This document shows, in pieces, positions 12,185-45,601 of a DNA stretch of 64,000 bases. This DNA is from Bacteroidales bacterium (GTDB lineage: Bacteria > Bacteroidota > Bacteroidia > Bacteroidales > UBA932). Location: assembly GCA_017428325.1 (NCBI GenBank), contig JAFRRA010000002.1, forward strand, positions 434,001 to 498,000, given 5' to 3'. The position numbers were made by a program, and so were the translations under genes. Under the pieces are notes generated by a model, which worked only from the letters and a program-made list of their open reading frames with translations, was not told the DNA's origin and made no database searches. The stretch's first letter is position 1, and every line of letters begins with the position of its first letter.

Positions 12185-13234
12185 ATGTCAATTTTTTGTG
12201 ACAAAGTCCTGATGATTACAGGAGGCACTGGCAGTTTCGGCAACGCGGTTCTTAAGCGCTTTCTTAGGACAGATATTGGCGAAATCCGAATTTTTTCACG
12301 AGATGAAAAGAAGCAAGACGATATGCGTCATGAGTACCAGTCCAGGTATCCGGATGTGGCTCATAAGGTGAAGTTCTATATAGGGGATGTCCGTAACAAA
12401 AGCACTCTTAAGTATGCTATGCAAGGAGTGGATTATGTTTTTCACGCAGCTGCGCTTAAACAGGTGCCGAGTTGTGAATTTTTCCCGATGGAAGCTGTCA
12501 AAACCAATGTTATAGGTACTGATAACACTCTAGATGCAGCTATAGACGCCGGAGTAAAATGTGTAATCTGTCTTTCCACGGACAAGGCTGCATATCCAAT
12601 CAATGCTATGGGTATAACCAAGGCTATTGAGGAGAAGATTGCTGTCGCCAAAAGCCGTTACAGTGGTAATACAAAGATTTGCTGCACTCGTTATGGAAAC
12701 GTAATGTGCAGTCGTGGTTCTGTAATTCCGCTATGGATTGACCAGATCCGCAATGGCAACCCCATAACGCTAACGGAACCTACGATGACCCGTTTTATTA
12801 TGTCTCTTGAGGAGGCTGTCGATCTGGTGCTCTATGCTTTTGAACATGGACAAAATGGTGATATCCTTGTACAGAAAGCTCCTGCATGCACGATTCAAAC
12901 CCAAGCAGAGGCCGTTTGTGAGCTATTTGGGGGCAATAAGGAGGACATAAAAGTCATAGGTATCCGTCACGGCGAGAAGTTATTCGAGACCCTTCTTACT
13001 AACGAAGAATGCGCAAAGGCAATAGATGAAGGTAATTTTTATCGTGTTCCGGCAGATAACCGCGACTTGAACTATGATAAGTATTTTACAGACGGAAATG
13101 CTGAAAGAAATGTTCTTACTGAGTTCAATTCAAACAATACTGAGCGTTTAGATATAGGACAAGTCAAGGCTAAGCTTTTGTCGCTTGATTATATACAGAA
13201 TGAATTAAACGGAGTAGAAAACATAGCTAAGTAA
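12185..13234 (+). CDS. UDP-GlcNAc 4,6-dehydratase/5-epimerase (FnlA/WbjB/CapE type)
   Basis: A 349-residue soluble short-chain dehydrogenase with NAD loop TGGTGSFG and catalytic TDK at about 132-134. The FSRDEKKQDDMR segment is characteristic of the FnlA/WbjB/CapE branch. These enzymes convert UDP-GlcNAc to UDP-2-acetamido-2,6-dideoxy-L-hexos-4-uloses, the entry to UDP-L-FucNAc and UDP-L-QuiNAc. The next two genes supply the following steps in pathway order, almost without gaps. Length equals the usual family size. Confidence 0.9.
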   Translation: MSIFCDKVLMITGGTGSFGNAVLKRFLRTDIGEIRIFSRDEKKQDDMRHEYQSRYPDVAHKVKFYIGDVRNKSTLKYAMQGVDYVFHAAALKQVPSCEFFPMEAVKTNVIGTDNTLDAAIDAGVKCVICLSTDKAAYPINAMGITKAIEEKIAVAKSRYSGNTKICCTRYGNVMCSRGSVIPLWIDQIRNGNPITLTEPTMTRFIMSLEEAVDLVLYAFEHGQNGDILVQKAPACTIQTQAEAVCELFGGNKEDIKVIGIRHGEKLFETLLTNEECAKAIDEGNFYRVPADNRDLNYDKYFTDGNAERNVLTEFNSNNTERLDIGQVKAKLLSLDYIQNELNGVENIAK

Positions 13235-13236
13235 AT

Positions 13237-14091
13237 ATGAAGTTCTTTATTTGTGGTTGTAATGGGATGGCAGGGCATACCATCTCTCTCTATCTTAAGG
13301 AACAAGGCCATGAAGTTTTGGGTTTTGATCTTAGAAAGTCACAAATTATCCCTAGCTTTGTCTGTAATGCATTTGATACTAATACTTTAGAGAAAGTTAT
13401 CAAGGATGGAAAATATGACAGTGTAATAAATTGCATTGGTATTCTCAACCAGTTTGCTGAACAGAACAAGGCGTTGGCTGCTTTTCTGAATTCCTTTTTT
13501 CCTCACTTTCTCGCCAAAACCACTGAAGGAACTGAAACACAAGTGATACATATGAGTACAGACTGTGTTTTTTCTGGTCGCCGTGGTGCATATAGTGAAG
13601 ATGATTTTCAAGATGGAGAGACTTTCTATGACCGCAGTAAAGCTCTTGGCGAGTTGAATGATGAGAAAAATATAACCCTTCGCAATTCTATTGTCGGTCC
13701 GGATATCAACCCCAATGGCATAGGTCTTCTCAACTGGTTTCTTCAGCAGAAGGGACAGATTAATGGCTTTACTAAGGCAATGTGGACAGGTCAAACCACT
13801 CTACAGTTAGCCAAGACAATGGAACAGGCCGCTAAGGAGAAAGCGCATGGCCTTTATAATACGGTGCCTGACCATAGTATCAGCAAATACGAGCTCTGCA
13901 ATTTATTTAATAAGTACTTCCGTGATAATTCTTTGACAATTAATCCAGTAGACGGAGTCGTTGCAGACAAGTCCCTTAAGCGTACCCGATTTGAGTTCGC
14001 TTACCTCATTCCAGATTACGAGACTATGGTAAAAGAGCTTTCGGATTGGGTAAAAGCTCATAAGAACATGTATCCTCACTACAATTTATAG
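13237..14091 (+). CDS. RmlD-like nucleotide-sugar 4-ketoreductase (L-QuiNAc or L-FucNAc path)
   Basis: A 284-residue reductase of the RmlD-type extended SDR family. It has a dinucleotide loop CGCNGMAG near the N-terminus, STDCVFSG, and the active-site YDRSK at about residues 129-133. It sits between a FnlA-like dehydratase and a UDP-GlcNAc 2-epimerase. In L-FucNAc synthesis this slot is filled by the longer FnlB/WbjC/CapF, which carries a C-terminal cupin. Here no cupin is present, as in the RmlD-like WbvR/QnlA of L-QuiNAc pathways. On that basis I favour UDP-L-RhaNAc as product, then UDP-L-QuiNAc. Start ATG follows the previous stop by two bases. Confidence 0.85.
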   Translation: MKFFICGCNGMAGHTISLYLKEQGHEVLGFDLRKSQIIPSFVCNAFDTNTLEKVIKDGKYDSVINCIGILNQFAEQNKALAAFLNSFFPHFLAKTTEGTETQVIHMSTDCVFSGRRGAYSEDDFQDGETFYDRSKALGELNDEKNITLRNSIVGPDINPNGIGLLNWFLQQKGQINGFTKAMWTGQTTLQLAKTMEQAAKEKAHGLYNTVPDHSISKYELCNLFNKYFRDNSLTINPVDGVVADKSLKRTRFEFAYLIPDYETMVKELSDWVKAHKNMYPHYNL

Positions 14092-14094
14092 AGT

Positions 14095-15222
14095 ATGAGA
14101 AAACTGAAGCTGATGACGATTGTCGGGACTCGCCCGGAGATTATCAAGATGTCTGCCATCATTAAGAAGGCAGACAAGTACTTTGAACAGATTCTAGTTC
14201 ATACTGGGCAGAATTACGACTATACTCTGAACGAGATTTTCTTTAAGGACCTTGGTTTAAGAGAGCCAGATCATTATTTGAACGTTGTCGGTGGCAACCT
14301 GGGGCAAACCATGGGTAATGTGATATTTAAAAGCTATGAATTGATGGAAGAGGTTAAACCGGATGCTGTTATAGTTCTTGGTGACACTAACTCATGCCTC
14401 AGCGTTATCTCGGCAAAGCGTCTAAAAATCCCAGTGTTCCATATGGAAGCCGGAAACCGCTGTAAGGATGAGAACCTCCCGGAAGAAGTTATCCGTCGCA
14501 TAGTTGACGTGACTAGTGACATCAATTTATGCTACAGCGAACATGCCCGCAGGTATATTTTAGACACAGGTGTGAAGCCTGAATACACTTTTGTTGTCGG
14601 ATCTCCAATGGCCGAGGTGCTTAAAGAGGTTCTTCCTCATATTGAAGCAAGCACAGTATTAGATGATTTAGGACTGGAAGCGGGTAAATATATTCTGCTA
14701 AGCGCTCACCGTGAAGAGAATATTGACATTGAGACTAATTTCTTCTCGCTGATGAATGCCGTGAACAAGATGGCTGAATCATATGATATGCCAGTACTAT
14801 ACAGTTGCCATCCTCGTAGCCAGAAGATGATTGATAAACGTGGCTTCAAATTCCATGAAAAAGTGATTAAACACAAGCCTTTGGGGTTCTTTGACTACAA
14901 TAAACTTCAGCAGAACGCATTTTGTGTGGTGAGCGATAGCGGGACATTACCTGAGGAAGGATCTTTCTTCGGTTTTCCGGCTGTTAGCATCCGTACAAGT
15001 ACTGAGCGTCCTGAAGCTATGGACAAAGGTGTGTTCACTATCGGTTCTATCACATCAGAACATGTATTGCAGGCTGTCGGATTAGCGGTGGCAATGCATT
15101 CTAATGGTGATGATGCTTGCCCGGTGCCTTCATATACTGATGATAATGTCTCGACCAAGGTTATTAAGATAATTCAGAGCTATGTCGGTATCGTCAATAA
15201 GATGATTTGGAGAAAATTCTAG
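14095..15222 (+). CDS. UDP-N-acetylhexosamine 2-epimerase (FnlC/WbjD/CapG type)
   Basis: A 375-residue non-hydrolysing 2-epimerase of the WecB superfamily: GTRPEIIKM near the N-terminus, HMEAGNRC, and the C-terminal SDSGTLPEEGSFFGFP segment typical of this GT-B-fold enzyme. As the third member of the L-sugar trio it would invert C2 of the UDP-6-deoxy-L-sugar, giving UDP-L-QuiNAc or UDP-L-FucNAc. It is three bases from the preceding reductase gene, so the trio is tightly coupled. Confidence 0.9.
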   Translation: MRKLKLMTIVGTRPEIIKMSAIIKKADKYFEQILVHTGQNYDYTLNEIFFKDLGLREPDHYLNVVGGNLGQTMGNVIFKSYELMEEVKPDAVIVLGDTNSCLSVISAKRLKIPVFHMEAGNRCKDENLPEEVIRRIVDVTSDINLCYSEHARRYILDTGVKPEYTFVVGSPMAEVLKEVLPHIEASTVLDDLGLEAGKYILLSAHREENIDIETNFFSLMNAVNKMAESYDMPVLYSCHPRSQKMIDKRGFKFHEKVIKHKPLGFFDYNKLQQNAFCVVSDSGTLPEEGSFFGFPAVSIRTSTERPEAMDKGVFTIGSITSEHVLQAVGLAVAMHSNGDDACPVPSYTDDNVSTKVIKIIQSYVGIVNKMIWRKF

Positions 15223-15246: not shown

Positions 15247-16455
15247 ATGTTCAATTTAGACAGGTTCATAGCGAATTGCGTTATAAGGAGGGATAAAAGT
15301 ATGTTTGCTCTTGATATAGAGGCAAACAGGGATATCTTAACAAGGGAGATAAAAGGCAAGAAGCTATGTGTGATTGGTGGGGCAGGAAGCATTGGGTCCA
15401 GTTTCATTAAGGCGGTTCTTCGCTTTGAACCAAAGAGTGTAGTGGTTGTGGATCTGAACGAAAATGGGCTTGCAGAGTTGGTAAGGGATGTCCGGAGTTC
15501 TGACGGCTTGTATGTCCCTGATGAATTCCGATGTTATACGCTTAATTTTGCCGATCCCATATTCAGGAGGATTTTTTATGAGGAGAAGGGGTTTGACATT
15601 TTGGCTAATTTCTCTGCACATAAGCATGTCCGGAGTGAAAAGGACAGGTATTCCGTGCAGGCATTGATAGAGAATAATGATATCAAGGCAAAGAAGCTGA
15701 TGGATATGCTGAAGGTATATCCTCCTAAACACTTCTTTTGTGTCAGTACAGACAAGGCGGCTAATCCTGTGAATATAATGGGGGCCAGTAAACGCATTAT
15801 GGAGGACATGGTTATGGCTTATAACCAGTACTTTAAAGTTACAACAGCTCGCTTTGCCAATGTTGCCTTCAGTAATGGTTCTTTGCCTGATGGATGGCTG
15901 CACAGATTGCAGAAAAAGCAGCCATTGGTAGCACCAAGCGACGTAAAGCGTTTCTTTGTCAGTCCAGAAGAAAGCGGTCAGATATGTATGTTAGCATGTA
16001 TCCTGGGAAATCCAGGAGAAGTGTTCTTCCCTAAGTTGGGCGAGGACCAGATGCTGACATTTGGCAGTATCTGTGACGTTTTTCTAAAGGCTGAAGGTTT
16101 CATAAAGAAACAATGTTCTTCGGAAGAGGAGGCTAAAGCATATGCTGCCGCTATGGGATATGATAGCGAGATTTACCCTGTCTTCTATTCTGGTTCTGAT
16201 ACTACGGGAGAAAAAGCATATGAAGAGTTTTACGTTAGTGGGGAGAAAATTAATCTGCAGAGATTCAATAGTCTAGGTGTTGTTGAACAGACGGCACGGC
16301 ATAACATGGAAGAGGTGGACAGTTTCTTCAATGATTTGGAGTCTCTTTTCAAGAAAGAAAACTTCTCCAAGTCTGACATTGTTGAAGCCATCAAGACCTT
16401 CATTCCTAATTTCGAGCATGAAGAAAAAGGCAAGAACCTTGATCAGAAAATGTAA
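15247..16455 (+). CDS. Nucleotide-sugar 4,6-dehydratase, CapD-like (LegB-associated type)
   Basis: A 402-residue extended SDR of the polysaccharide-biosynthesis CapD type with NAD loop GGAGSIGS (about residues 42-49), NFSAHKHVRSEKD, and catalytic STDKAANPVNIMGASKR. It lacks membrane helices. Its long C-terminal region (SGSDTTGEKAYEEFY and beyond) resembles the roughly 400-residue dehydratases found beside LegC-type aminotransferases. It would make a 4-keto-6-deoxy-HexNAc nucleotide for the aminotransferase encoded 17 bases later. UDP versus GDP carrier cannot be told from sequence. It is the third 4,6-dehydratase of the locus. Confidence 0.82.
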   Translation: MFNLDRFIANCVIRRDKSMFALDIEANRDILTREIKGKKLCVIGGAGSIGSSFIKAVLRFEPKSVVVVDLNENGLAELVRDVRSSDGLYVPDEFRCYTLNFADPIFRRIFYEEKGFDILANFSAHKHVRSEKDRYSVQALIENNDIKAKKLMDMLKVYPPKHFFCVSTDKAANPVNIMGASKRIMEDMVMAYNQYFKVTTARFANVAFSNGSLPDGWLHRLQKKQPLVAPSDVKRFFVSPEESGQICMLACILGNPGEVFFPKLGEDQMLTFGSICDVFLKAEGFIKKQCSSEEEAKAYAAAMGYDSEIYPVFYSGSDTTGEKAYEEFYVSGEKINLQRFNSLGVVEQTARHNMEEVDSFFNDLESLFKKENFSKSDIVEAIKTFIPNFEHEEKGKNLDQKM

Positions 16456-16472
16456 GTATTTATATAAATATT

Positions 16473-17612
16473 ATGGCATACAAAATACCACTTTTTAATC
16501 TCAATTTTGATGATCGTGAGGCTCAGGCAGCATATGCTACTATAAAGTCCGGGTGGATTTCAACCGGTCCGAAGAATGCGGAGCTTGAACAGATGTTTAT
16601 TGATATGTGGGGCGTTAAATACGCTGTGAGCATGTCTAACTGTACCGATGCTTTACATGTGTGCTGTATGGTGTGTGGTTTTGGGCCTGGAGACGAGGTA
16701 ATTTGTCCTTCTTTGACTTTTGCGGCCAGTTGCAACTGTATTCGCTATGTGGGTGCTACTCCTGTTTTTGCTGATATTGTCGGGGCAGACCATATCAATA
16801 TAGATCCCAAGGATATTGAACGCAAAATTACCTCCAAGACTAAGGGCATAGTGGTAGTCCATATGGCTGGATTTCCTTCACAGATGGACGAAATTATGGC
16901 TATAGCCCGAAAGTATAATCTTAAGGTTGTCGAGGATGCTTGTCATGGACCTCTCTCTGAGTATAAGGGTAAGAAATTAGGCACTATCGGCGACTGTGCG
17001 TCATTCAGTTTCTTCTCTAATAAGAATATCAGTACAGGAGAAGGTGGGATGTTTATAAGCAATAATGAGGAGATGGCAGCTAAAGCCCGGCTTATAAGAA
17101 GCCATGGCATGAGCACTATGAGTTATCAGCGAGCCACCGGTCACGCTACCGAGTATGACATTACCTGTTTGGGCTATAACTTCCGTATGGATGATATTCG
17201 TGCATCTATTGCCATAGAGCAGTTGAAGAAACTAAAGGGCGACCTGGAAACCCGAATGACAGTACGAAAGCTATACCTTGACAGACTGACAAAGATAGAC
17301 GGTGTGGTTGTTCCGTTTGCTGACAACACTGAGTTTGTAAGCAATTACATCTTGCCTGTCGTGCTTTTGAACAGCACCAAGGAACGTCGCAATAAGATAC
17401 GGGACTTCATCCATAAAGCAGGAATCCAGACTAGCGTCCATTATCCTGCAGTACATAAATTCTCGATTTATAAGGATTTGGGCGCTGTGCTTCCTAAGAC
17501 TGATTATGTAACCGACAATGAAATCACGTTGCCGATGTATGCTGCTCTGACGAAGGAACAGATATCTTTCATTTGCGATACATTTGAAGCTGCCGTAAAA
17601 GAGATAAAGTAA
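16473..17612 (+). CDS. PLP-dependent sugar 4-aminotransferase (DegT/DnrJ/EryC1 family)
   Basis: A 379-residue PLP aminotransferase with the internal aldimine Lys184 in FFSNKNISTGEGG and the PLP-contacting Asp in VVEDACHG. This family transfers amino groups from glutamate to 4-keto (or 3-keto) nucleotide sugars. Directly downstream of a 4,6-dehydratase, it most simply makes a 4-amino-4,6-dideoxy-HexNAc nucleotide. The product is a plausible substrate for the ATP-grasp ligase or the acyltransferase encoded next. Confidence 0.9.
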   Translation: MAYKIPLFNLNFDDREAQAAYATIKSGWISTGPKNAELEQMFIDMWGVKYAVSMSNCTDALHVCCMVCGFGPGDEVICPSLTFAASCNCIRYVGATPVFADIVGADHINIDPKDIERKITSKTKGIVVVHMAGFPSQMDEIMAIARKYNLKVVEDACHGPLSEYKGKKLGTIGDCASFSFFSNKNISTGEGGMFISNNEEMAAKARLIRSHGMSTMSYQRATGHATEYDITCLGYNFRMDDIRASIAIEQLKKLKGDLETRMTVRKLYLDRLTKIDGVVVPFADNTEFVSNYILPVVLLNSTKERRNKIRDFIHKAGIQTSVHYPAVHKFSIYKDLGAVLPKTDYVTDNEITLPMYAALTKEQISFICDTFEAAVKEIK

Positions 17613-18800
17613 ATGTATCGTAGTAAGAAAGCTGTTCTTGTCTTTGGTGTAGGCCCTCTTCAGAGATCGATAGTTGAGAGGGCAAAGAATATGGGGCTTT
17701 ATACCGTGGGGGTTGATCCGGCGGAAGATGCAGTCTGCCGTGAGGCTGTGGATGCCTTCGAGATTGTTGGGGGCCAGGACTATGAAGGGACTTGTGCTGT
17801 GATTGAGAAGTATGGCATTGACGCCATTGTGACAGCTGCTACCGACAAACCTTTGGTGATGATGGCGCATATAGCAGAGAGATATGGCTTTCCCTTCTTC
17901 TCTGCTGAAACAGCCATATGCAGTACGGATAAATTCAAGATGAAGCAGCGGTTTATGGATGGAAAAGTTCCATGTGCCAAAGGCCGTCTTGTGAAATCTG
18001 CGAATGAGGTTGAGGATTTTGAGTATCCTGTCATTGTTAAGCCTAGAGATAATTCAGGAAGCCGCGGCGTAAAACTTTGCCGCAGCAAAGATGAATTGGA
18101 TTATTCTATCAGTGAAGCCCTTGATGTGTCACATTATGACAATGTTCTGGTCGAGGAGTTCATAGAAGGGTCTGAATTCAGCATAGAAGGGCTTCATTTT
18201 GATGGCAAGAGTGAGGTTATTCAATTTACCGAAAAGAGCACTACTGAATTCCCATATAACGTTGAGACTGGACATATTCAGCCAGCGAATATCTCTGAAG
18301 ACAACAGAGAGAGAATTCGCCAGATTGTACGTTTGATCGGCGATGTGATGAAATTTGAGAATTGTCCTTCTCATACAGAGTTGAAGATTAACAATCGTGG
18401 AATCTTTGTAATAGAGACCAGTCCGCGTCTTGGGGGAGACTATATTACATCTACATTGACCCCATTATCTACTGGGGTCAACATGGAAGACCAGTTATTG
18501 CATATTGCTCTCGGCGATACTGTCAGCATACATCCTGCCTCGGTACAGTATTCAGGCATTCGTTTCTTTTCTTTTGAAGAGGGGAGAAAGGTACAGCATT
18601 TGCCTGATCCTTCAGTTGTCAAGAACTGGCCACATGTAGTTGATTATTCTTTATCTCTAAAAGTTGGGGATGAGGTAAACAGGATAACCTCGAGCCTTAA
18701 CCGTTACGGACACATTATTCTTCAGACAAATAATAGGGACGAGATGGAGGATGAGTTTGACAAATACGTGAAAGAGATTAAAAAGACAATGTTTTTATAG
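17613..18800 (+). CDS. ATP-grasp ligase
   Basis: A 395-residue ATP-grasp protein that begins immediately after the aminotransferase stop. An N-terminal Rossmann-like preATP-grasp domain is followed by the ATP-binding loop KPRDNSGSRGV and the Mg-binding end VIETSPRLGGD. The family forms amide or peptide bonds through an acyl phosphate. Between an aminotransferase and an N-acyltransferase gene it may attach an amino acid or other carboxylate to an amino sugar, or make the acid used by the module that follows. Neither substrate is evident from motifs. Confidence 0.8.
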   Translation: MYRSKKAVLVFGVGPLQRSIVERAKNMGLYTVGVDPAEDAVCREAVDAFEIVGGQDYEGTCAVIEKYGIDAIVTAATDKPLVMMAHIAERYGFPFFSAETAICSTDKFKMKQRFMDGKVPCAKGRLVKSANEVEDFEYPVIVKPRDNSGSRGVKLCRSKDELDYSISEALDVSHYDNVLVEEFIEGSEFSIEGLHFDGKSEVIQFTEKSTTEFPYNVETGHIQPANISEDNRERIRQIVRLIGDVMKFENCPSHTELKINNRGIFVIETSPRLGGDYITSTLTPLSTGVNMEDQLLHIALGDTVSIHPASVQYSGIRFFSFEEGRKVQHLPDPSVVKNWPHVVDYSLSLKVGDEVNRITSSLNRYGHIILQTNNRDEMEDEFDKYVKEIKKTMFL

Positions 18801-18809
18801 ATCATAGTC

Positions 18810-19448
18810 ATGAAAAAGATAGCTTTTTTAGGATCTGGTGCTTTGGCTGTTGACTTAAGTGATACTGTCGTTAACTGGAAGCTATATGAAGTTGCAGGCT
18901 TTATAGATGGCAATTGCGTTAAGGGTACGCTGGTTAATGGTTATCCGGTATTGGGGAACGACGATGACGTTGTCACATTATATAATAATGGCTCTTTTGA
19001 TTTTTTGTTCATTGCAATCGGCTACTTGAATTTTTCAATAAGGGAGAAATTGTATAATCGTTTCAAAGGAATAGTTCCTTTTGCTAATATCATATCTCCA
19101 ACAGCATATATTCATCCAACTGCGACAATAGGTGAAGGAGTGATGGTTTCTGACGGTGTCTATATTAGCCGGCATGTAATCCTGGAAGACAATGTTATGA
19201 TAACCTTACGCTCAATTGTCAACCATGACGGTCATGTGAAAAAGCATTCTTTTTTCTCCACACTTGTGACCACAGCCGGTAATGTGACGATTGGGGAGAG
19301 GTGTTTCGCTGGCGTGGGAGTGACAATCTCAGATGGAGTAACGTTATGTGATGATGTATGGCTTTCGCCAGGGACAGTTGTGGCTAATGATATTGATACG
19401 CCAGGACATTATATGTCGAAAACCATAAAGCTCTATAATTTAGGCTAA
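18810..19448 (+). CDS. PglD/NeuD-type sugar acyltransferase (module 1)
   Basis: A 212-residue protein with an N-terminal Rossmann-like sugar-nucleotide domain and a left-handed parallel beta-helix of hexapeptide repeats. The likely catalytic base lies in NHDGH (His139, His142), the position of the PglD active-site His. Such enzymes N-acetylate the 4-amino group of UDP-sugars using acetyl-CoA. Here an acyl carrier protein gene follows 26 bases later, so the donor may be acyl-ACP instead. It has a counterpart at 40427-41068 with the same His-Asp-x-His spacing and the same following ACP. Confidence 0.85.
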   Translation: MKKIAFLGSGALAVDLSDTVVNWKLYEVAGFIDGNCVKGTLVNGYPVLGNDDDVVTLYNNGSFDFLFIAIGYLNFSIREKLYNRFKGIVPFANIISPTAYIHPTATIGEGVMVSDGVYISRHVILEDNVMITLRSIVNHDGHVKKHSFFSTLVTTAGNVTIGERCFAGVGVTISDGVTLCDDVWLSPGTVVANDIDTPGHYMSKTIKLYNLG

Positions 19449-19474
19449 CTGTAATAGATTTTTATATTAACAAG

Positions 19475-19705
19475 ATGGAAATTAATGATTTTATTCAACA
19501 TTTCGCAGAACAGTTTGATTTCACTGATTCCGGTGAATTCAAAGCTGATACTGTTTTTAAGCAATTAGACGAGTGGTCTTCAATAGTGGCATTGAGTGTC
19601 ATCTCAATGGTTGATGAAGAGTATGGTGTGACTATCAAGGGTGATGATATCAAACTCTCTGACACTATAGAAGATTTATTTAATATAGTTCAATCCAAAG
19701 CATGA
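19475..19705 (+). CDS. Acyl carrier protein, WSS type (module 1, ACP-a)
   Basis: A 76-residue acidic acyl carrier protein homologue. The phosphopantetheine site is Ser36 in EWSSIVAL, where Ser replaces the usual Asp of the DSL motif. In an ungapped comparison by eye it matches the second module's ACP-a (41080-41313) at 35 of 76 positions, including Ser36. ACPs carry acyl groups as thioesters. Its gene overlaps the next reductase gene by ATGA, which implies coupled translation. Confidence 0.82.
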   Translation: MEINDFIQHFAEQFDFTDSGEFKADTVFKQLDEWSSIVALSVISMVDEEYGVTIKGDDIKLSDTIEDLFNIVQSKA

Positions 19706-20457
19706 TGGATTACAATCCCTTTTCCTTAGAAGGCAAAACAATTCTTATTACAGGAGGAGCTGGGGGCATTGGCAGTGAGGTTGCCCGTGTCTGTTCTAAA
19801 CTGGGCGCCAGAATTATCTTAACGGATATTCGCGAGGAAGCGCTTACTATGGCACTGGACACTCTTTCAAAACATGAGGGGAAGGAGCATCTCGCCATTA
19901 AGGCTGATCTTACCGATGCGGATGAATTGAATGGCCTCGTGACCGCGATTCCGGAAATTGACGGTTTTGTCTGCAATGCCGGCGTTATGAAATTAGTTCT
20001 TACTCAGTTTATCACTGAAGAAGAACTCAAGCGGATTCAAAGTATCAATCTGAATGCTCCGATACTGCTGACTAGATCTTTGCTTAAAAAGAAAAAGATC
20101 AATAGAGGCGGATCTATAGTTTTTACTGCTTCCGCTGCAGGAGTTTACAGGGTGTCAATAGGAAATGCGATATATGCCACGACCAAATGCGGTATAGATG
20201 CCTTTATGAGAACAGTTGCCCTTGAATATGGTCATAAAGGTATTCGCTGTAATAGTGTTAATCCCGGCATGGTTGAAACTGCATTAATCAGTGGATTCAC
20301 TGAGGAAGAAAAAGAAAAGGAGATGTTAAATTATCCATTGAGACGTTTCGCCAAGCCTGAAGACATTGCTTTTGGCATTGCATTTCTTCTTTCGGACGCG
20401 TCATCTTTTGTTACAGGCTCAGCTTTGAAAATCGATGGTGGAATGACGTTAAGTTAG
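19702..20457 (+). CDS. Short-chain dehydrogenase (module 1, SDR-a)
   Basis: A 251-residue classical SDR with NAD(P) loop TGGAGGIG, NAG motif and catalytic YATTK; the C-terminal FVTGSALKIDGG is FabG-like. Its N-terminal NPFSLEGK is shared with the SDR after ACP-a in the second module, so ACP-a and SDR-a seem to be an inherited pair. FabG-type enzymes reduce 3-oxoacyl-ACP to 3-hydroxyacyl-ACP, which is the likely role, though oxidation or a sugar substrate is possible. The start overlaps the ACP stop. Confidence 0.85.
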   Translation: MMDYNPFSLEGKTILITGGAGGIGSEVARVCSKLGARIILTDIREEALTMALDTLSKHEGKEHLAIKADLTDADELNGLVTAIPEIDGFVCNAGVMKLVLTQFITEEELKRIQSINLNAPILLTRSLLKKKKINRGGSIVFTASAAGVYRVSIGNAIYATTKCGIDAFMRTVALEYGHKGIRCNSVNPGMVETALISGFTEEEKEKEMLNYPLRRFAKPEDIAFGIAFLLSDASSFVTGSALKIDGGMTLS

Positions 20458-20463
20458 TTATCC

Positions 20464-21183
20464 ATGAAACTATTAGAGAATAAAGTAGTCCTTATTACGG
20501 GCGCAGGTCGTGGTATAGGCCGGGTTATTGCAGACCAGTTTATTTCTGACGGTGCAATAGTATATGCAAACGATCTTAATGAGTTTGAAATAGATGGAGC
20601 CCGAACCATCTGTTTTGATGTAACAGACAGTAATGCTTTGAAGGCAGGGCTGATGTCTATCTACAAAGCAGAAGGGAGGATTGACTGTGTGGTTAATAAT
20701 GCTGCCGTCATCGCCAACCAGAAACTTGGTATGGTTACGAAACAATTATTGGAAAAGATGTATCAAGTGAATGTTTTTGCTGTAATAGACATGATACAGA
20801 CAGTTTCGCGCCTGATGGCACGTAATGGAGGAGGGAACATCATAAATATGGCATCTGTCACAGGAGTGGTCGGTTCACCTGGACAGGTAGCTTATTCCGC
20901 TTCCAAAGGAGCTGTCATAGCACTCACTAAATCAGCAGCAAAAGAACTTGCCCCCCAGGGTATACGTGTAAATGCCATTGCACCTGGTATTATTAAGACA
21001 GAAAGATTTGAAGAATTGTATGAGGCCAGCGGTGACAAAATAGACCAGCGTATAGGACGGATAGCTTTGGGACGTTTAGGGACACCACAGGATGTTGCGT
21101 TTGCAGCAGCTTTTCTTGCTTCAGACCGAGCTTCATATATCAGTGGACATATCCTTGGCGTTGATGGCTGTGCGACTATTTAA
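20464..21183 (+). CDS. Short-chain dehydrogenase, FabG-like (module 1, SDR-b)
   Basis: A 239-residue classical SDR with TGAGRGIG, NNAAV, catalytic Ser in NMASVTG and YSASK, ending in ISGHILGVDGC. Overall it is close to 3-oxoacyl-ACP reductases. It starts six bases after SDR-a. Two reductases with one ketosynthase suggest either different substrates or one working in the oxidative direction. Confidence 0.85.
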   Translation: MKLLENKVVLITGAGRGIGRVIADQFISDGAIVYANDLNEFEIDGARTICFDVTDSNALKAGLMSIYKAEGRIDCVVNNAAVIANQKLGMVTKQLLEKMYQVNVFAVIDMIQTVSRLMARNGGGNIINMASVTGVVGSPGQVAYSASKGAVIALTKSAAKELAPQGIRVNAIAPGIIKTERFEELYEASGDKIDQRIGRIALGRLGTPQDVAFAAAFLASDRASYISGHILGVDGCATI

Positions 21184-21196
21184 CAAATAAGAAGCA

Positions 21197-22576
21197 GTGT
21201 TTTTAGATTTAGACAAGAAGGAGCGAACCAGGATAGCCGCTATCGATGATAGCGGCCGGTCTGTTTCTTATGGTGATATTTGCGATATTGCAGAAGAGTT
21301 CGGGGGATATTTGCCAAAGCGTTCTTTGATTTTTATCCTCTCGGAGAATTGTATCGGTTCACTTTTAGGGTATACATCTGCACTTTATAACCAGATAGTG
21401 CCAATTATTTTAAGCTCTGCAACTGAAGAGTCTTTGTACGATAACCTATATGATACTTATAAACCAGAGTACTTATGGTTATCGTTAAGGAAAGCCAAGG
21501 AAAAGTGTTATGTTCCGTTATTCTCTGTATGGGACTATTGTCTTGTAAAAACAGGCAATGAACATACTCCGATGTTTGAAGAATTGTCCTTGCTGCTGCC
21601 AACATCTGGTTCTACTGGCAGTCCCAAAATGGTGCGTCATAGCTATAGGAATATTGAAGCCAATGCCGATAATGTCCGGAGATTATTTAAACTGGATGGA
21701 AGTGAGAGGGCAATGGCTATTCTGCCGATGCATTATACGATGGGATTGTCCGTGATAGCATCTCATCTTCTTGCAGGATCTACATTATTGCTCTCTGCAC
21801 GTTCTTTACTTGACAAGGGCTTCTGGCAAATGTTGAAAGAGGCGACAAGTTTTACTGGGGTTCCATATAGCTATGAAATATTGGTGAAAATGCGCTTTAC
21901 GCGCATGGAATGGCCTAAACTCAAGGTTATTACTCAGGGCGGTGGAAAATTGTCCGAAAAAATGTGGAGCACTTTGGCACAATATGCTGCAGACAACGGC
22001 AAGAGTTTCATTGCAACATACGGGCAGTCAGAATGCACGGCAAGAATGGCTTTTCTTCCTGCGGATCTAGCTTTAGTTAAGGTCTGTAGCATAGGATTTG
22101 CTGAACCTGGTGGCCAACTCTCTATCGTTGATGAAAATGGGATTGAATCTTTTGAAGGTGTGGCTCAGGGTGAGATGGTATACCGTGGTGAGAACGTTAC
22201 CTTAGGCTATGCATACAGCCGGGAAGATTTGTTGAAGGGTGATGAGAATCACGGGGTGATGCACACTGGCGATCTTGCCAGGCGCGACGCTGACGGGTGT
22301 TATTTTATAATGGGGCGCCTAAAACGTTTTTTGAAGATATTCGGATTGAGGATAGGGTTAGACGAAACAGAGAGATTGATAAAGTCTGAATTCAATACGG
22401 ATTGCTATTGCAAAGGGAATGATGAAAAACTCATAGTGATGCTGACCAACCCCCAGATACAGGAACTTATCCCACAATTCATTGAAGAAAAGACACATTT
22501 GTTCCATCAAAAAGTGGAGGTACAGTTGGTGAAAGAAATATTGCGAAATGAAGCAGGAAAAGTAATTAATCAATAA
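21197..22576 (+). CDS. Acyl-adenylating ligase (module 1)
   Basis: A 459-residue ANL-superfamily AMP-forming ligase beginning with GTG. The P-loop is TSGSTGSPKM, the adenylate region includes ATYGQSE, the hinge region is GRLKRFLKIFG, and the C-terminal catalytic Lys455 is in EAGKVINQ. The enzyme activates a carboxylic acid as acyl-AMP and transfers it to CoA or to an ACP. The ACP gene ten bases downstream is the obvious acceptor. It is shorter than typical acyl-CoA synthetases, as is common for ACP-loading ligases. The acid is unknown. Confidence 0.85.
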   Translation: MFLDLDKKERTRIAAIDDSGRSVSYGDICDIAEEFGGYLPKRSLIFILSENCIGSLLGYTSALYNQIVPIILSSATEESLYDNLYDTYKPEYLWLSLRKAKEKCYVPLFSVWDYCLVKTGNEHTPMFEELSLLLPTSGSTGSPKMVRHSYRNIEANADNVRRLFKLDGSERAMAILPMHYTMGLSVIASHLLAGSTLLLSARSLLDKGFWQMLKEATSFTGVPYSYEILVKMRFTRMEWPKLKVITQGGGKLSEKMWSTLAQYAADNGKSFIATYGQSECTARMAFLPADLALVKVCSIGFAEPGGQLSIVDENGIESFEGVAQGEMVYRGENVTLGYAYSREDLLKGDENHGVMHTGDLARRDADGCYFIMGRLKRFLKIFGLRIGLDETERLIKSEFNTDCYCKGNDEKLIVMLTNPQIQELIPQFIEEKTHLFHQKVEVQLVKEILRNEAGKVINQ

Positions 22577-22586
22577 TCAATTCTTT

Positions 22587-22826
22587 ATGACTAATTTAGA
22601 AAAATTGAACAAGATATTCTGCGAGGTGTTTTCTGTCGAACCGACAGCCCTTGGCAGTGATTTTAACAAGAATACGGTTGCTGGATGGGATTCTGTTCAT
22701 CAGCTCAGCCTGACAACTGCTGTTGAGGATGAATTCGATATTCTGCTTGATGTAGAAGATATTCTTGAATTCACCTCATACGACAACGCCAAGACTGTTT
22801 TGACAAAATATGATATTGTTTTCTAA
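22587..22826 (+). CDS. Acyl carrier protein, WDS type (module 1, ACP-b)
   Basis: A 79-residue acyl carrier protein with phosphopantetheine Ser36 in GWDSVHQL, followed by acidic helix-3 residues. It differs from ACP-a and matches the WDS-type ACP of module 2 in its motif and in lying next to a ligase gene. Its stop overlaps the ketosynthase start (TAATG). Confidence 0.85.
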   Translation: MTNLEKLNKIFCEVFSVEPTALGSDFNKNTVAGWDSVHQLSLTTAVEDEFDILLDVEDILEFTSYDNAKTVLTKYDIVF

Positions 22827-23887
22827 TGGCATTTTGGAGTATAAAGAATGTAGCGTTTAGGGGAGTTACGGGAACTGTACCTGATCATTCTGTAAAAACC
22901 GCAGACTTTAGTTTTTTTTCAAAAGAAGATGCGGATTTATTCGATAATACAGTTGGTATAAAGAATCGGTACATAGCCCCAACCGATGTGTGCGCCTCTG
23001 ATTTGTGCTTTGATGCAGCGGAGCGTTTGATAGAAGGATTGGGATGGAGCAAAGAAAGCATAGATGTTCTTGTTTTCGCCTCAGTTACTGGTGACTATAA
23101 GACACCACCCACGTCGGGGATATTGCAAGACCGTTTAGGGTTGCCAACATCGGTCTTTGTGCTTGATATACCTATGGGGTGCTGTGGAACATTGTATGCG
23201 ATTAATGTTGCCGGGAATTTGCTGTCTGGCGGGACAGCTAAACGTGCTTTGCTTCTTGTAGGAGATACTGCCTATCGGATGGGTTCACCGATTGACAAAA
23301 GCAGGGTGCCTCTTTTCGGTGATGCCGGGATGGCAATGGCGCTTGAGCATGATGAAACAGCTGAAGATATTTCAATAGACTTTAATACCTTAGGTTCTGG
23401 ATATCAAGCTCTGATGACCCCACATGGCGGTTACAGGCATCCGGTTACAATAGAAGAATCATTTAAGTATGAAGATTTCGGGAATGGTATTGTCCGTGCT
23501 CCTAAAGACGCGCTTATAAATGGAATGGATGTTTTCTCCTTTGCAATTTCCAAACCTCCGTTGAGCATAAAAATGATGCTTGAAGAAAAAAGTCTTGACA
23601 AAGACAAAGACATTGATTTCTTCCTTATTCATCAGGCAAATAAGCTTATAGTTGACCGGATCGTAAAGAAATTGAAACTGCCGGTTGAAAAGGTTCCATA
23701 TGACTTGCAGGAGTTTGGTAATCTTGGCGGAGCTTCCATACCGATGCTTATGACCTACAATTTGTCAGAAGAGTTGAGAAATCGCCCTCTGACACTGATG
23801 TGTTCAGCTTTCGGACTCGGTTTAACTTGGGGCACTATGCTACTCAAGACACGGCCATGCGTTGTATTAGACTTGAATTTTCTATAG
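22826..23887 (+). CDS. Ketoacyl-ACP synthase III-like enzyme (module 1)
   Basis: A 353-residue FabH-family thiolase-fold enzyme with the full triad: Cys119 in DIPMGCCG, His269 in LIHQAN, and Asn in FGNLGGAS. FabH enzymes condense an acyl thioester with malonyl-ACP. With an acid-activating ligase and two ACPs beside it, this one probably extends an ACP-bound or CoA-bound starter by two carbons. It has the same starting motif (MAF-SI-NV) and the same Cys position as the module 2 ketosynthase. HMG-CoA-synthase-like or acyl-transfer chemistry is a possible alternative. Confidence 0.88.
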   Translation: MAFWSIKNVAFRGVTGTVPDHSVKTADFSFFSKEDADLFDNTVGIKNRYIAPTDVCASDLCFDAAERLIEGLGWSKESIDVLVFASVTGDYKTPPTSGILQDRLGLPTSVFVLDIPMGCCGTLYAINVAGNLLSGGTAKRALLLVGDTAYRMGSPIDKSRVPLFGDAGMAMALEHDETAEDISIDFNTLGSGYQALMTPHGGYRHPVTIEESFKYEDFGNGIVRAPKDALINGMDVFSFAISKPPLSIKMMLEEKSLDKDKDIDFFLIHQANKLIVDRIVKKLKLPVEKVPYDLQEFGNLGGASIPMLMTYNLSEELRNRPLTLMCSAFGLGLTWGTMLLKTRPCVVLDLNFL

Positions 23888-23923
23888 AATACTTTCCCGA
23901 ACATCTTTTTGAAAATAATTAAT

Positions 23924-24658: not shown

Positions 24659-24660
24659 GT

Positions 24661-26286: not shown

Positions 26287-26291
26287 ACATA

Positions 26292-40426: not shown

Positions 40427-41068
40427 ATGAAAGATATTGTAATCTATGGCGCAGGAGGTTTCGGTAGAGAGATTGCGTGTCTGATAAACCGTGTTAACTC
40501 GATAAAGCCTGAATGGAACCTACTTGGTTTTCTTGATGACGGAGAACCTGTCGGAACTAAGAACGAATATGGGGAGGTGTTGGGAAACCTTGATTTTATA
40601 AATAGTTATCCCCATGAGATATCTGTTGTCCTTGCGATTGGTACGCCACATATTCTTCAGAAACTGGCAAATGCAATAACAAATCCTAAAGTGAATTATC
40701 CGAATATTGTTGATCCGGATGTTTTCTTCTTGGATAAGAATAACATCAGTATGGGGAGAGGCAATGTTATTTGTGCTCAGTGTGTAGTAAGTTGCAATGT
40801 AAAGATGGGAGACTTTAATTTGTTCAATATCGGTGCAGGTATCGGACATGATACACATTTGGATAACTATAATGTTATTATGCCGAATGTAAATATTTCC
40901 GGTGGCGTTGTGATAGGAAATTGTAACTTGCTTGGTGTAAAATCAACCGTATTACAATACTTGAAAATAGGCAATCGCATAACTATTGGCGCTAACAGTT
41001 TGTTGATAAGGAATGCGAAAGATGATGCGCTGTATATAGGAAACCCCGCAAAAAAAGTTGATTTTTAA
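40427..41068 (+). CDS. PglD-like sugar N-acyltransferase (module 2)
   Basis: A 213-residue acyltransferase with N-terminal GAGGFGRE and a left-handed beta-helix. Candidate catalytic His141 is in GIGHDTH, with His144. PglD N-acetylates UDP-4-amino sugars for bacillosamine. It opens the second ACP module, just as the acyltransferase at 18810-19448 opens the first. The donor could be acetyl-CoA or an acyl-ACP. Confidence 0.88.
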   Translation: MKDIVIYGAGGFGREIACLINRVNSIKPEWNLLGFLDDGEPVGTKNEYGEVLGNLDFINSYPHEISVVLAIGTPHILQKLANAITNPKVNYPNIVDPDVFFLDKNNISMGRGNVICAQCVVSCNVKMGDFNLFNIGAGIGHDTHLDNYNVIMPNVNISGGVVIGNCNLLGVKSTVLQYLKIGNRITIGANSLLIRNAKDDALYIGNPAKKVDF

Positions 41069-41079
41069 TTTACATACAT

Positions 41080-41313
41080 ATGGATATTAATTGTTTTATT
41101 GAAGCCTTTGCTGACTTGTTTGAGGAGACAGAGGCAGATGCTTTTTCTCCGGAAACGCATTTCCGTGATTTGGCTGAATGGTCATCTCTTATAGCACTTT
41201 CTGTCATGTCGATGATAGATGATGAATATGATGTTCAGCTTAATGCTTCAGAATTGCGCCAGGCCAACACAATCCAGGAATTATTTGAAATAGTTTCATC
41301 AAAAAAATCATGA
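41080..41313 (+). CDS. Acyl carrier protein, WSS type (module 2, ACP-a)
   Basis: A 77-residue acyl carrier protein with phosphopantetheine site Ser36 in EWSSLIAL. It is clearly paralogous to ACP-a of module 1. The stop overlaps the next SDR start by ATGA, exactly as in module 1. Confidence 0.82.
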   Translation: MDINCFIEAFADLFEETEADAFSPETHFRDLAEWSSLIALSVMSMIDDEYDVQLNASELRQANTIQELFEIVSSKKS

Positions 41314-42056
41314 GCAATCCATTCTCTCTAAAAGGCAAGAGCATCATGGTTACAGGTGCTTCTTCAGGTATTGGCCGCTCAATAGCAATTGAGTGTTCCC
41401 ATATGGGTGCTGACATTATTATGGTTGCACGTAACCAAAGTCGATTGGAAGAAACTCTTTCAATGATGGGAGAGGGAAATCATGTGATGATTCTTACACA
41501 TTTAGAGATAGAAGAAGAATTAGATAATTTAGTTGAAAACATTACATCCCTTGATGGAGTTGTTCATTGTGCCGGCATTGCACCACATCATCCTTTTAAA
41601 TTCGTAAGCCGTTCAAAGTTTGAAGAGACTTTCGCTGTGAACTTTTTTGCACCAGCTCTTTTGTCCCAAAAATTGGTAAAGAAGAAAAAAATGTCCAAGC
41701 CGTCTTCTATTGTATTTATTTCCTCTATATCAGGTAATTGTATAGCAGCATCGGCTTCAACTGCATATTGTTCCAGCAAAGCGGCTATCGGAGGATTGGT
41801 AAAGTCTATGGCCGTGGATCTGGCATCGCAGGGTATTCGTGTAAACAGTATTTCTCCAGGCGCAATCAGAACGGCTATTTTTGATAGTGGCCAATTTTCT
41901 GAAGAGGACATCAAAGCGGAAGAGCAACGATATCTCTTGAAGCGTCTCGGAAAACCAGAAGATATTGCTTATGCGGCCATTTATCTTCTTTCTGATGCCA
42001 GTTCATGGACAACAGGCTCTAATATAGTTGTAGATGGCGGTTATACTGTCTTATAA
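41310..42056 (+). CDS. Short-chain dehydrogenase (module 2, SDR-a)
   Basis: A 248-residue classical SDR with TGASSGIG, HCAGIAP, SSISG and catalytic YCSSK. It shares the N-terminal NPFSLKGK with the SDR that overlaps ACP-a in module 1. Probable 3-oxoacyl-ACP reductase or related oxidoreductase acting on an ACP-bound group. Confidence 0.85.
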   Translation: MSNPFSLKGKSIMVTGASSGIGRSIAIECSHMGADIIMVARNQSRLEETLSMMGEGNHVMILTHLEIEEELDNLVENITSLDGVVHCAGIAPHHPFKFVSRSKFEETFAVNFFAPALLSQKLVKKKKMSKPSSIVFISSISGNCIAASASTAYCSSKAAIGGLVKSMAVDLASQGIRVNSISPGAIRTAIFDSGQFSEEDIKAEEQRYLLKRLGKPEDIAYAAIYLLSDASSWTTGSNIVVDGGYTVL

Positions 42057-42068
42057 TTAAACTAGTTT

Positions 42069-43124
42069 ATGGCTTTTTTATCAATACCCAATGTTCGAAT
42101 AGCCGGACTTGCCGCTGCTGTTCCCAAAGAAAAGAAAGACATACTGAATTTGAAATGTTTCGCCCCTGGCGAAGCAGAGAAGGTTATGGCACTGACAGGC
42201 ATTACTGAAAGTAGACTTGCGCCGGAAGGTATGGTATGTTCTGATTATTGCCAATTTGCTTCTGAAAGACTGATAGAGGAATTGGGATGGGAGAAGGATT
42301 CTATTGATGCTCTTGTTTATCTCTCGGTTTCGAGAGATTATATAGAGCCTAATACCTCTACAGTTATTCAAGGCAGAATGGGGCTGCCTTCATCTTGCTA
42401 TACAATAGATGTTCCGATGGCTTGTTCTGGGTATTGTTATGGATTGTCAGTTGTTGCTTCTCTGCTCTCGCTTGGTTGCATGAAGCGAGCACTTATGCTA
42501 GTTGGAGATACCCCGTCTAAGATTATGTCTGATTTGGATAAGACCGTATGGCCCCTTCATGGAGACGCAGGTACTGCTACAGCCTTAGAATTCTGTCAAG
42601 GGGCATCACCTATGCTTATGAATCTTCTCAGCGATGGTTCACAGAAGGATGCGATTATTTCTCCCCACAGCGGTGTTCGGAACCCTATTACGGAAGTGTC
42701 CCTAAAGATGGAATATATTGATGAAGGCATCATCCGAAATAAGACACATGTAACAATGGATGGGATTAGTGTTTTTGCCTTTGCAACAATGCGGGTTCCT
42801 AAGGATATTCTGGCTCTAATCGATCATTTCGGGTTGAATAAGGACTCAATTGATTATTTACTCCTTCATCAGGCAAACAAGTATATTGATGACAAGATCC
42901 GTAAGAAGCTGAAGTTCACAGAAGAGAAAACACCGTATTGCCTGGATGAATTTGGCAATACCAGTAGCGGTACCATACCAATGACTATGGTTACAAGAAT
43001 ACGCGAGGATCTGGAGGGTAAGAAGAATAAACTCCTCTTGAGTGGTTTTGGTGCAGGATTATCTTGGGCTGCAGTTTATCTGGAAACCGATCCGTTCAGA
43101 GTTTTGCCTTTAATAGAAGTTTAA
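42069..43124 (+). CDS. Ketoacyl-ACP synthase III-like enzyme (module 2)
   Basis: A 351-residue FabH-family ketosynthase with Cys119 in DVPMACSG, His267 in LLHQAN, and Asn in FGNTSSGTIP, so the condensing triad is complete. It is the counterpart of the module 1 ketosynthase, with the same Cys position and similar N-terminus. Here it sits between the two reductases rather than at the end, showing that the module has been rearranged since duplication. Confidence 0.88.
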   Translation: MAFLSIPNVRIAGLAAAVPKEKKDILNLKCFAPGEAEKVMALTGITESRLAPEGMVCSDYCQFASERLIEELGWEKDSIDALVYLSVSRDYIEPNTSTVIQGRMGLPSSCYTIDVPMACSGYCYGLSVVASLLSLGCMKRALMLVGDTPSKIMSDLDKTVWPLHGDAGTATALEFCQGASPMLMNLLSDGSQKDAIISPHSGVRNPITEVSLKMEYIDEGIIRNKTHVTMDGISVFAFATMRVPKDILALIDHFGLNKDSIDYLLLHQANKYIDDKIRKKLKFTEEKTPYCLDEFGNTSSGTIPMTMVTRIREDLEGKKNKLLLSGFGAGLSWAAVYLETDPFRVLPLIEV

Positions 43125-43130
43125 ATAATT

Positions 43131-43877: not shown

Positions 43878-43906
43878 AGAAAGTATTAATCAAGTTAGTA
43901 TAGATA

Positions 43907-44152
43907 ATGGATAAAGATCAAATTTTAGGAACAGTATCTAGTATTGTTGCAGAAATATGCGGTGTTGAAAAGGATGCGGTTAATGAAAACAGCACAGTGG
44001 GCGATTTCCCTGCATGGGATTCTGTCGGGCATCTCAGCATATTGTCAAAAGTTGAAGAAACCTATGATATCAGCTTCGAACCAGAAGAAATGATGGAAAT
44101 AGAAGATGTTAAGGATATCGTTGAGGCTGTGTACAATATACTTCAGAAATGA
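43907..44152 (+). CDS. Acyl carrier protein, WDS type (module 2, ACP-b)
   Basis: An 81-residue acyl carrier protein with phosphopantetheine Ser39 in AWDSVGHL. Its stop overlaps the ligase start (ATGA), so ligase and ACP-b are coupled; in module 1 the ligase and WDS-type ACP are also adjacent. The ligase probably loads this ACP. Confidence 0.87.
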   Translation: MDKDQILGTVSSIVAEICGVEKDAVNENSTVGDFPAWDSVGHLSILSKVEETYDISFEPEEMMEIEDVKDIVEAVYNILQK

Positions 44153-45597: not shown

Positions 45598-45601
45598 CGA
45601 T

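Follow-up and report, generated by a model that had tools for sequence, protein, structure and literature searches.

The described systems closest to our subject, a seven-gene module (module 1) in a capsule operon of a Bacteroidales bacterium, come from flagellar glycans and O antigens. Module 1 occupies positions 18,810 to 23,887 of a 64,000-nucleotide stretch of DNA, hereafter the window (assembly GCA_017428325.1, contig JAFRRA010000002.1, positions 434,001 to 498,000 of the forward strand; the assembly has 1.95 Mb in 7 contigs). In Pseudomonas syringae, the viosamine island encodes VioA, VioB, VioR, VioS and an acyl carrier protein (ACP) and is proposed to make a 3-hydroxybutyryl-type N-acyl group; the accessible part of the report gives mutant and mass-spectrometric support, a vioR mutant lacking the modified viosamine (PMC3927599). 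In the O antigen of Flavobacterium psychrophilum, the R1 genes wfpC-wfpG go with an N-acyl group assigned by nuclear magnetic resonance (NMR) as 3,5-dihydroxyhexanoyl; in the accessible part of that paper the gene roles are predictions, and an antigenic effect is linked to the R-group genes (PMC6519341). Group II flagellar glycan islands of Aeromonas carry an ACP/ketoreductase/AMP-synthetase/LuxE/LuxC set (PMC7874193) and similar genes occur in enterobacterial flagellar islands (PMC4875605); the parts of both papers available to us only suggest a lipid-bearing sugar. In Vibrio cholerae O1, WbeL (471 aa, with a putative ATP-binding domain) is predicted, in the portion available, to be needed for the tetronate N-acyl group, and deletion of wbeL removes the O1 antigen (PMC3441752). 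We compared all these systems with module 1 by description, and homology of the module's ligase was examined in Vibrio, Marinomonas and others. The tetronate pathway has an ACP/reductase composition and, to our knowledge, no ketosynthase.

For immune cells and phages, the capsule determines how a gut Bacteroidales cell looks, and few of the non-sugar groups on these capsules have been mapped. Judging from its genes, the most likely role of module 1 is to make an unusual acyl group and attach it to an amino sugar. A recognisable acyl-making cassette would permit sequence-based prediction of unusual N-acyl groups, and module 1 would be a small, separable system for one ketosynthase (KS) that reads two different carrier proteins.

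Gene content and catalytic residues of module 1

The module comprises the following genes (SDR, short-chain dehydrogenase/reductase; KAS III, 3-ketoacyl-ACP synthase III):

18810..19448, + strand: PglD1, left-handed beta-helix nucleotide-sugar N-acyltransferase with His139 (Pfam PglD_N, AlphaFold model)
19475..19705, + strand: ACPa, acyl carrier protein of the 'a' half-module, Ser36 (tree clade)
19702..20457, + strand: SDRa, beta-ketoacyl reductase-like SDR (Pfam adh_short_C2)
20464..21183, + strand: SDRb, second SDR, partner of LIG (Pfam adh_short_C2)
21197..22576, + strand: LIG, acyl-AMP ligase, GTG start (Pfam AMP-binding, predicted fold)
22587..22826, + strand: ACPb, acyl carrier protein of the 'b' half-module, Ser36 (tree clade)
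22826..23887, + strand: KS1, KAS III ketosynthase (Pfam ACP_syn_III and ACP_syn_III_C)

All seven are intact open reading frames (ORFs) without internal stops and fit the families that the initial annotation had given them, the two ACPs by homology and motif. It had also called them consecutive and mostly overlapping; consecutive they are, but only two of the six junctions overlap (ACPa-SDRa by 4 bp, ACPb-KS1 by 1 bp), the remaining four being gaps of 26, 6, 13 and 10 bp. As had been noted, no dehydratase, enoyl reductase or malonyl transferase is found among the seven by Pfam and NCBIfam; a LuxC acyl reductase, present in a second module of the window (module 2), is likewise absent by Pfam. 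Elsewhere the genome has one match to the malonyl transferase FabD, one to a phosphopantetheinyl transferase, and further ACPs.

The expected catalytic residues are all present, in agreement with the initial annotation. In KS1 the triad C119/H269/N299 is invariant in 21 of 21 aligned KSs, and both Pfam domains score above their cut-offs; against the NCBIfam fabH model it reaches 169.8 bits, below the cut-off of 292.1, so that by these scores KS1 is a FabH relative not filed as the housekeeping FabH. Acyltransferring KS III enzymes such as CerJ differ from condensing KAS III at the triad Asn; since Asn299 is kept, a condensing enzyme is expected, and the acyltransferring type was ruled out. PglD1 scores 34.8 bits against PglD_N (cut-off 23.4) and 138 bits against NCBIfam TIGR03570, under the cut-off of 160.8, as a divergent member; His139 is invariant in 30 of 30 aligned sequences, and the AlphaFold model (predicted local distance difference test, pLDDT, 93.6) matches first PglB, PerB, PglD and VioB, all sugar N-acetyltransferases, with LpxD only later. 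Neither ACPa nor ACPb reaches any Pfam or NCBIfam model; they are named ACPs because of their homology to other ACPs, among them ACPa2 and ACPb2 of module 2, which match PF00550, and because they carry the Ser36 motif (EWSS and GWDS). Both SDRs have the Ser...YxxxK signature, as YATTK in SDRa. An Asp at the end of beta2 in SDRs marks NAD(H) preference; SDRa of the window has it and so probably uses NAD(H), and in SDRb it is found in 15 of the 15 readable module-1 loci listed (one further was unreadable).

In LIG the signatures of an adenylating enzyme are complete (TSGSTGSPK P-loop, YGQ(S/T)E, TGD and a C-terminal catalytic Lys), and E279 is conserved in all 85 relatives compared, K455 in all 84. 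Arg283, four residues after Glu279, is likewise invariant (85/85); by the pocket numbering of nonribosomal peptide synthetases (NRPSs) this position presumably lines the acyl pocket, and the residue hints that the substrate has a polar group or a second carboxylate. LIG2, the ligase of module 2, has its Arg one residue earlier. The LIG model (pLDDT 92.7) has the fold of adenylating enzymes; its top solved matches are mixed (oxalate-CoA ligase, MenE, adenylation domains), and the structure comparison, meant to identify the starter, gave no substrate-specific match. An amino-acid ligase of the NRPS or DltA kind was considered and rejected: LIG lacks the A4-type Asp region that marks such enzymes and has an LPMHYTMGLS motif, which is acyl-CoA-ligase-like.

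Half-modules and the conserved cassette

The related loci comprise 80 named loci kept from a LIG search (at least 541 relatives) and 20 further ones, a sample gathered mostly by LIG similarity. Across these roughly 100 loci the genes fall into two half-modules, 'a' (PglD-ACPa-SDRa-KS) and 'b' (SDRb-LIG-ACPb). A tree of 123 ACPs has two clades, of 45 (ACPa) and 78 (ACPb) rows, with branch support 99/96, and is partly circular, as the class labels were taken from best BLAST hits (one was relabelled by the tree). Their neighbours differ: ACPa adjoins PglD in 27 of 45 cases and LIG in 2, whereas ACPb adjoins LIG in 52 of 78 and PglD in 2, and LuxE/LuxC genes lie near ACPb in 35 of 78 cases against none of 45 for ACPa. 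The KS1 group is a single clade (25 of 60 rows, support 100/100) that adjoins ACPb in 24 of 25 cases and ACPa in none; the other KSs stand beside ACPa in 13 of 35 cases and beside ACPb in 3.

Pairwise identity matrices tie LIG, ACPb and KS together (rho 0.85 for LIG-ACPb, 0.63 for LIG-KS and 0.62 for ACPb-KS, with 0 of 500 permutations as high). Outside this trio SDRb-KS reaches 0.54 and all other pairs 0.10-0.44, among them PglD-SDRa and PglD-LIG (both 0.44) and ACPa with the others (0.10-0.38). Ten pairs were permuted; in seven no permutation of 500 was as high, and in ACPa-SDRa, ACPa-KS and PglD-ACPa 3, 6 and 23 were. That LIG loads ACPb, as originally suggested, is supported in outline by their adjacency and apparent co-inheritance.

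The halves also occur apart. Two loci, L086 and L087, have the b half with a transferase (PglD-SDRb-LIG-ACPb), and tblastn found no KS or ACPa within 19 kb; L086 has an additional ligase-like fusion after PglC. The a half is cleanly alone in L067 (PglD-ACPa-KS-SDRa-KS), where no ligase and no second carrier were found. Three further candidates for clean a-only loci were rejected: in the near-copies L062 and L065, PglD-ACPa-SDRa-KS is followed by another carrier-like ORF or another ligase, and in L066 by another carrier downstream. In L065, the ORF directly after this set (10302-10589, 96 aa, with a carrier-like D-S motif) precedes another AMP ligase (23% to LIG2), perhaps a third kind of ligase/carrier pair. 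L133 has PglD-ACPa-SDRa-ACPb-LIG-KS, without SDRb. Module 1 is both half-modules combined, with the ACPb-adjoining KS1.

This combination is conserved. KS1 relatives of at least 58% identity occur in 25 loci; L076, a copy of the L053 contig, was dropped, leaving 24 unique cassettes. The order ACPa-SDRa-SDRb-LIG-ACPb-KS is exact in 18 of these (L093 with a doubled ACPa), and in 21 the gene directly ahead of LIG is SDRb. Deviations are a single small additional ORF (L079), an insertion of two genes (L081), a rearrangement (L075), truncation at the contig end (L090) and a further KS beside ACPa (L074 and L084). Within the window's family, a KS at least 66% identical to KS1 is found in 7 of 299 genomes (own included; some KS at E <= 1e-40 in 46), and in the six others the order is identical. 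The gene order is far beyond chance, and an origin of the gene set by chance or artefact was ruled out by this conservation together with the intact ORFs.

The gene before ACPa is less constant. It is of the PglD type in 15 of the 24 (by BLAST; three were checked with Pfam), a GNAT in two, a weak hexapeptide match in one, a flippase in two, another gene in two and unassigned in two. Median identity to the window is 24% for PglD (19 of 24 with a match) versus 67% for KS1 and 55% for LIG, so that the transferase is exchanged and the cassette is retained; on these sequences, the acyl-building cassette is portable and the transferase varies by locus.

Among the 80 named LIG relatives, the eight at 70-79% identity all bear the labels Bacteroidales, Bacteroidia or Prevotella, and several of these eight carry rumen or RUG labels (the window's own record may have been excluded). 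Named isolates with the cassette are Bacteroides timonensis AP1 and Butyricimonas sp. Marseille-P3923. In a phylum-wide draw LIG matches at E <= 1e-30 occur in 18 of 395 genomes; the four best apart from the window's own are two loci with ACPb-SDRb-LIG-LuxE (L070, L072) and two with LIG alone (L069, L071). An ACPb-LIG-LuxE set also lies on a contig labelled Methanocorpusculaceae archaeon (L117; a metagenome-assembled genome that could be mis-binned). In L094, L096 and L060, LIG (LIG2-type in L060) and LuxE/LuxC are combined with a thiamine-diphosphate enzyme (L094, which also has NeuB) or a split transketolase (L096, L060); such loci may make unusual higher sugars by way of an aldehyde. A Vibrio sinaloensis locus, L142, has ORF lengths equal to those in L094, a likeness by length alone.

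Proposed pathway, acceptor and alternatives

We consider it somewhat probable, judging from the genes, that module 1 makes an acyl group for capsule sugar synthesis in two stages. For the starter, the load of each ACP, the direction of the SDRs and the acceptor we propose the following. In stage b, LIG would adenylate a small polar acid, either a hydroxy acid or a dicarboxylic one, and load it on ACPb, where SDRb would adjust the oxidation state of the bound acyl. In stage a, KS1 would take the acyl from ACPb and condense it with malonyl-ACPa, the malonyl being supplied by housekeeping FabD; SDRa would then reduce the beta-keto group, and PglD1 would move the (probably 3-hydroxy) acyl to the amine of a nucleotide sugar. 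In L086 and L087 a PglD and the b half appear to suffice, so that the acid carried by ACPb would probably be a complete acyl group already, to which the a half would add one ketide. PglD1 would acylate the 4-amine that PglF and PglE produce; it is quite possible, too, that it acts instead on the amino group of an amino acid which an ATP-grasp ligase has attached there. The outline originally put forward (an acyl-ACP beside a PglD-type transferase, one KS step and a reduction) is retained in this proposal; the acceptor as then stated, the sugar of the dehydratase/aminotransferase pair just upstream, has become uncertain. Three genes bear on it, the last of which, between PglE and PglD1, the initial annotation had left unmentioned:

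15247..16455, + strand: PglF-like nucleotide-sugar 4,6-dehydratase (top solved relative 3pvz)
16473..17612, + strand: PglE-like DegT sugar aminotransferase (PF01041, 359 bits)
17613..18800, + strand: ATP-grasp ligase, amino-acid-ligase-like (ATP-grasp_4 and LAL_C2 above cut-off)

Structure 3pvz is a UDP-GlcNAc 4,6-dehydratase (322.7 bits), and the top solved relatives of the aminotransferase are ArnB and perosamine synthases; those of the ATP-grasp protein include L-amino acid ligases, and its best solved hit, 4dim, bears the annotation of a purine enzyme. With a threshold of 50% identity, 8 of the 299 family genomes (own included; 9 at E <= 1e-60) have the ATP-grasp gene, and PglE adjoins it in all eight. 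An acyl module lies near it only in the window and L054; in the other six (L169-L174) there is no KS or ACP within 17-18 kb around it. Likewise, among the 24 cassettes a PglE of this type with a close ATP-grasp gene (65-71%) is nearby only in L054 and L074. PglE and ATP-grasp travel mostly without the acyl module, so the acceptor is uncertain and PglD1 may cap an aminoacylated sugar. In two of the six, an ATP-grasp/GNAT fusion directly follows PglF-PglE-ATP-grasp in place of PglD1 and the module (L169:6925-8490, L170:7176-8750), an arrangement that would fit an amino acid on the sugar amine followed by an acetyl cap (L169, L170) or by the module-1 acyl cap. Comparable structures are known: the accessible part of one account lists N-[(R)-3-hydroxybutyryl]-L-alanyl on 4-amino-4,6-dideoxyglucose, 2-hydroxyglutaryl on a bacillosamine-type sugar of Flexibacter maritimus, and 4-hydroxybutyramido sugars (PMC3210612). 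In L175 (7553-16711), KS-ACP-SDR genes lie beside an ATP-grasp gene (34%), a MaoC-type dehydratase and NeuB; by its genes this is another acyl pathway, with a dehydratase.

Several observations weigh against the two-stage proposal. The sampling by LIG similarity favours finding LIG with ACPb, and most permutations fall below even the weaker correlations (for ACPa-ACPb and for PglD-KS, none of 500 is as high), so shared ancestry contributes to all of them. L067 is the only clean a-only locus, and the LIG relatives of L069 and L071 (38-39%) lack ACP, KS and glycan context. Of the 16 loci read, 8 have the NAD(H)-type Asp in SDRa and 8 lack it; SDRs lying outside the cassette, two in all (in L073 and L093), do not enter this count. 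For the PglDs of the b-only loci, L086 and L087, the best matches among the full-cassette PglDs are 54-64% identical, so that PglD type does not reveal the donor ACP, and PglD might take the acyl from ACPb in full cassettes too. As for the company of sugar aminotransferases seen at the window, a DegT relative (some at only 27-33% identity) was found in 15 of the 24 loci within the 10-21 kb surveyed in each, and not in the other nine, two of which are short contigs. One of the nine (G446, locus L055) has its cassette on a 62.5-kb contig without DegT, and DegT matches on two other contigs; the occurrence that the initial annotation had named as refuting it, these genes without any sugar aminotransferase, is thereby partly observed. 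The genomes of the remaining eight all have DegT matches, counted genome-wide.

An acyl-aminoacyl amino sugar, formed when the predicted ATP-grasp ligase attaches an amino acid to the 4-amino sugar and PglD1 then acylates that amino acid, is in our view a possible rather than a probable product; this reading alters only the acceptor of the two-stage proposal. The constant adjacency to PglE, the six genomes without KS or ACP, the fusions of L169 and L170, the LAL_C2 domain with its likeness to L-amino acid ligases, and the natural 3-hydroxybutyryl-alanyl sugar all argue for it. The 4dim match and the presence of a close ATP-grasp gene near only two of the 24 cassettes argue against it. We think it unlikely that a 3-hydroxybutyryl-type group is made from a common short acid and placed directly on the bare 4-amine of PglF/PglE. 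The a half equals VioS/VioR/VioB/ACP in composition, and PglD1 directly follows PglF-PglE-ATP-grasp; but P. syringae, in the accessible account, does this without a ligase, a second ACP or a second SDR (PMC3927599), so these would be idle here, and the ATP-grasp gene would go unexplained.

LIG might instead load malonate or a substituted malonate on ACPb as the extender, with KS1 starting from acetyl-CoA. This would account for the missing malonyl transferase and suits the adjacency of KS1 to ACPb, the MatB structure matches and the invariant Arg283, which from its assumed place in the pocket could hold a second carboxylate; LIG scores 87 bits against the malonyl-CoA synthase model, far under the cut-off of 558. 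An extender unit makes little sense in the b-only loci, where LIG, ACPb and PglD occur without a KS, or beside the LuxE/LuxC acyl reductases near many ACPb genes, and the genome has its own FabD match; we rate this reading as improbable. More improbable still is that the module makes a lipid or secondary metabolite and lies in a polysaccharide operon by accident. The KS, ACP and SDR families do serve fatty-acid and polyketide synthesis too, but a glycosyltransferase, flippase or sugar-gene relative lies within eight genes in 23 of the 24 cassettes (weakly so in L077 and L105), in the one exception, L073, a DegT gene lies further upstream, and most have a PglD-type or GNAT gene before ACPa.

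Extended further, the two-stage proposal leads to a picture that we hold to be rather unlikely, in which gut and rumen Bacteroidales have a portable mini-polyketide synthase with two carriers. ACPb, charged by the ligase with a polar or dicarboxylic starter, would feed KS1 and ACPa, and the hydroxy, perhaps acidic, chain would end up on amino sugars that bear an amino acid. Capsule repeats would thereby be hybrids of sugar, peptide and polyketide, and the acyl cassette would be shuffled between strains, with exchangeable transferases.

Neighbouring genes and comparison with described systems

The operon, on the + strand, opens with a capsule export group (Poly_export, a Wzz/GNVR kinase and a NusG-KOW regulator, which we take to be of the UpxY kind) and extends through module 1. 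Two further sets of genes belong to its surroundings:

12185..15222, + strand: three FnlA/FnlB/FnlC-type genes (Polysacc_synt_2 with C-terminal domain, RmlD_sub_bind, Epimerase_2)
40427..48070, + strand: module 2, PglD2-ACPa2-SDRa2-KS2-SDRb2-ACPb2-LIG2-LuxE/LuxC fusion (Pfam)

The Fnl-type trio, named from Pfam family and order, is a probable route to UDP-L-FucNAc. In module 2 the LuxE/LuxC fusion has 822 aa; a PglC-type initiating transferase adjoins the module at 39812-40420, and a DegT aminotransferase lies beyond it at 50402-51658. Module 2 probably acylates the initiating sugar. Directly after module 1, at 23909-26759, a KdsB-like cytidylyltransferase, a 543-aa HMGL-like aldolase (whose second half has no Pfam domain) and a KdsC-like HAD phosphatase stand in a row and may serve the synthesis of a CMP-activated keto acid without a NeuB-type synthase. 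An M28-type peptidase-like gene, named from sequence alone, lies within the polysaccharide operon at 28043-28960, and L054 has a 40% homologue at the matching place in the order. In that locus, from another genus, counterparts of the HMGL, HAD, 26777, M28-like and PtmE genes that lie downstream of module 1 keep their order (L054:11198-17400, 40-73% identity).

The open-access literature, as far as we found, holds no description of both halves with a dedicated KS, nor of ACP gene clusters for 3-hydroxybutanoyl groups, and for an acyl-ACP pathway in Bacteroides capsules it yielded only F. psychrophilum as relevant. The related logic that the initial annotation had seen in the Pseudomonas viosamine island is borne out by VioB, ACP, VioR and VioS (PMC3927599): there, as in module 1, an amino sugar aminotransferase, an acyltransferase, an ACP, a ketoreductase and a KS III occur together. 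According to the accessible account, that island has no second ACP, no acyl-AMP ligase and no second SDR, all three being extras of module 1, and it acts on a dTDP sugar and flagellin, whereas module 1 belongs to a capsule operon and its dehydratase is closest to the UDP-GlcNAc type. The initial annotation had known of no described Bacteroidota system, a statement that wfpC-wfpG and their NMR-assigned acyl group correct. F. psychrophilum, itself a member of the Bacteroidota, shares with the window, in the part of the description available, fnl genes, pglE/pglF, a pglD homologue, an ACP, a ketoreductase and a ketosynthase (PMC6519341). It has two ketosynthases and one ACP there, whereas module 1 has one KS, two ACPs and LIG-ACPb-SDRb; L067, from the window's own family, carries the F. 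psychrophilum-like set.

The b half resembles the ACP-SDR-AMP-ligase unit of Aeromonas (PMC7874193), which has a LuxE/LuxC reductase and, in the accessible text, no KS named, whereas module 1 has KS1 and no LuxC. As in the tetronate pathway of V. cholerae, a dedicated protein would serve the N-acyl group of an amino sugar, so far as the available description goes (PMC3441752). The core of the a half is already known from P. syringae and F. psychrophilum, and it is the addition of LIG-ACPb-SDRb by which module 1 differs from them.

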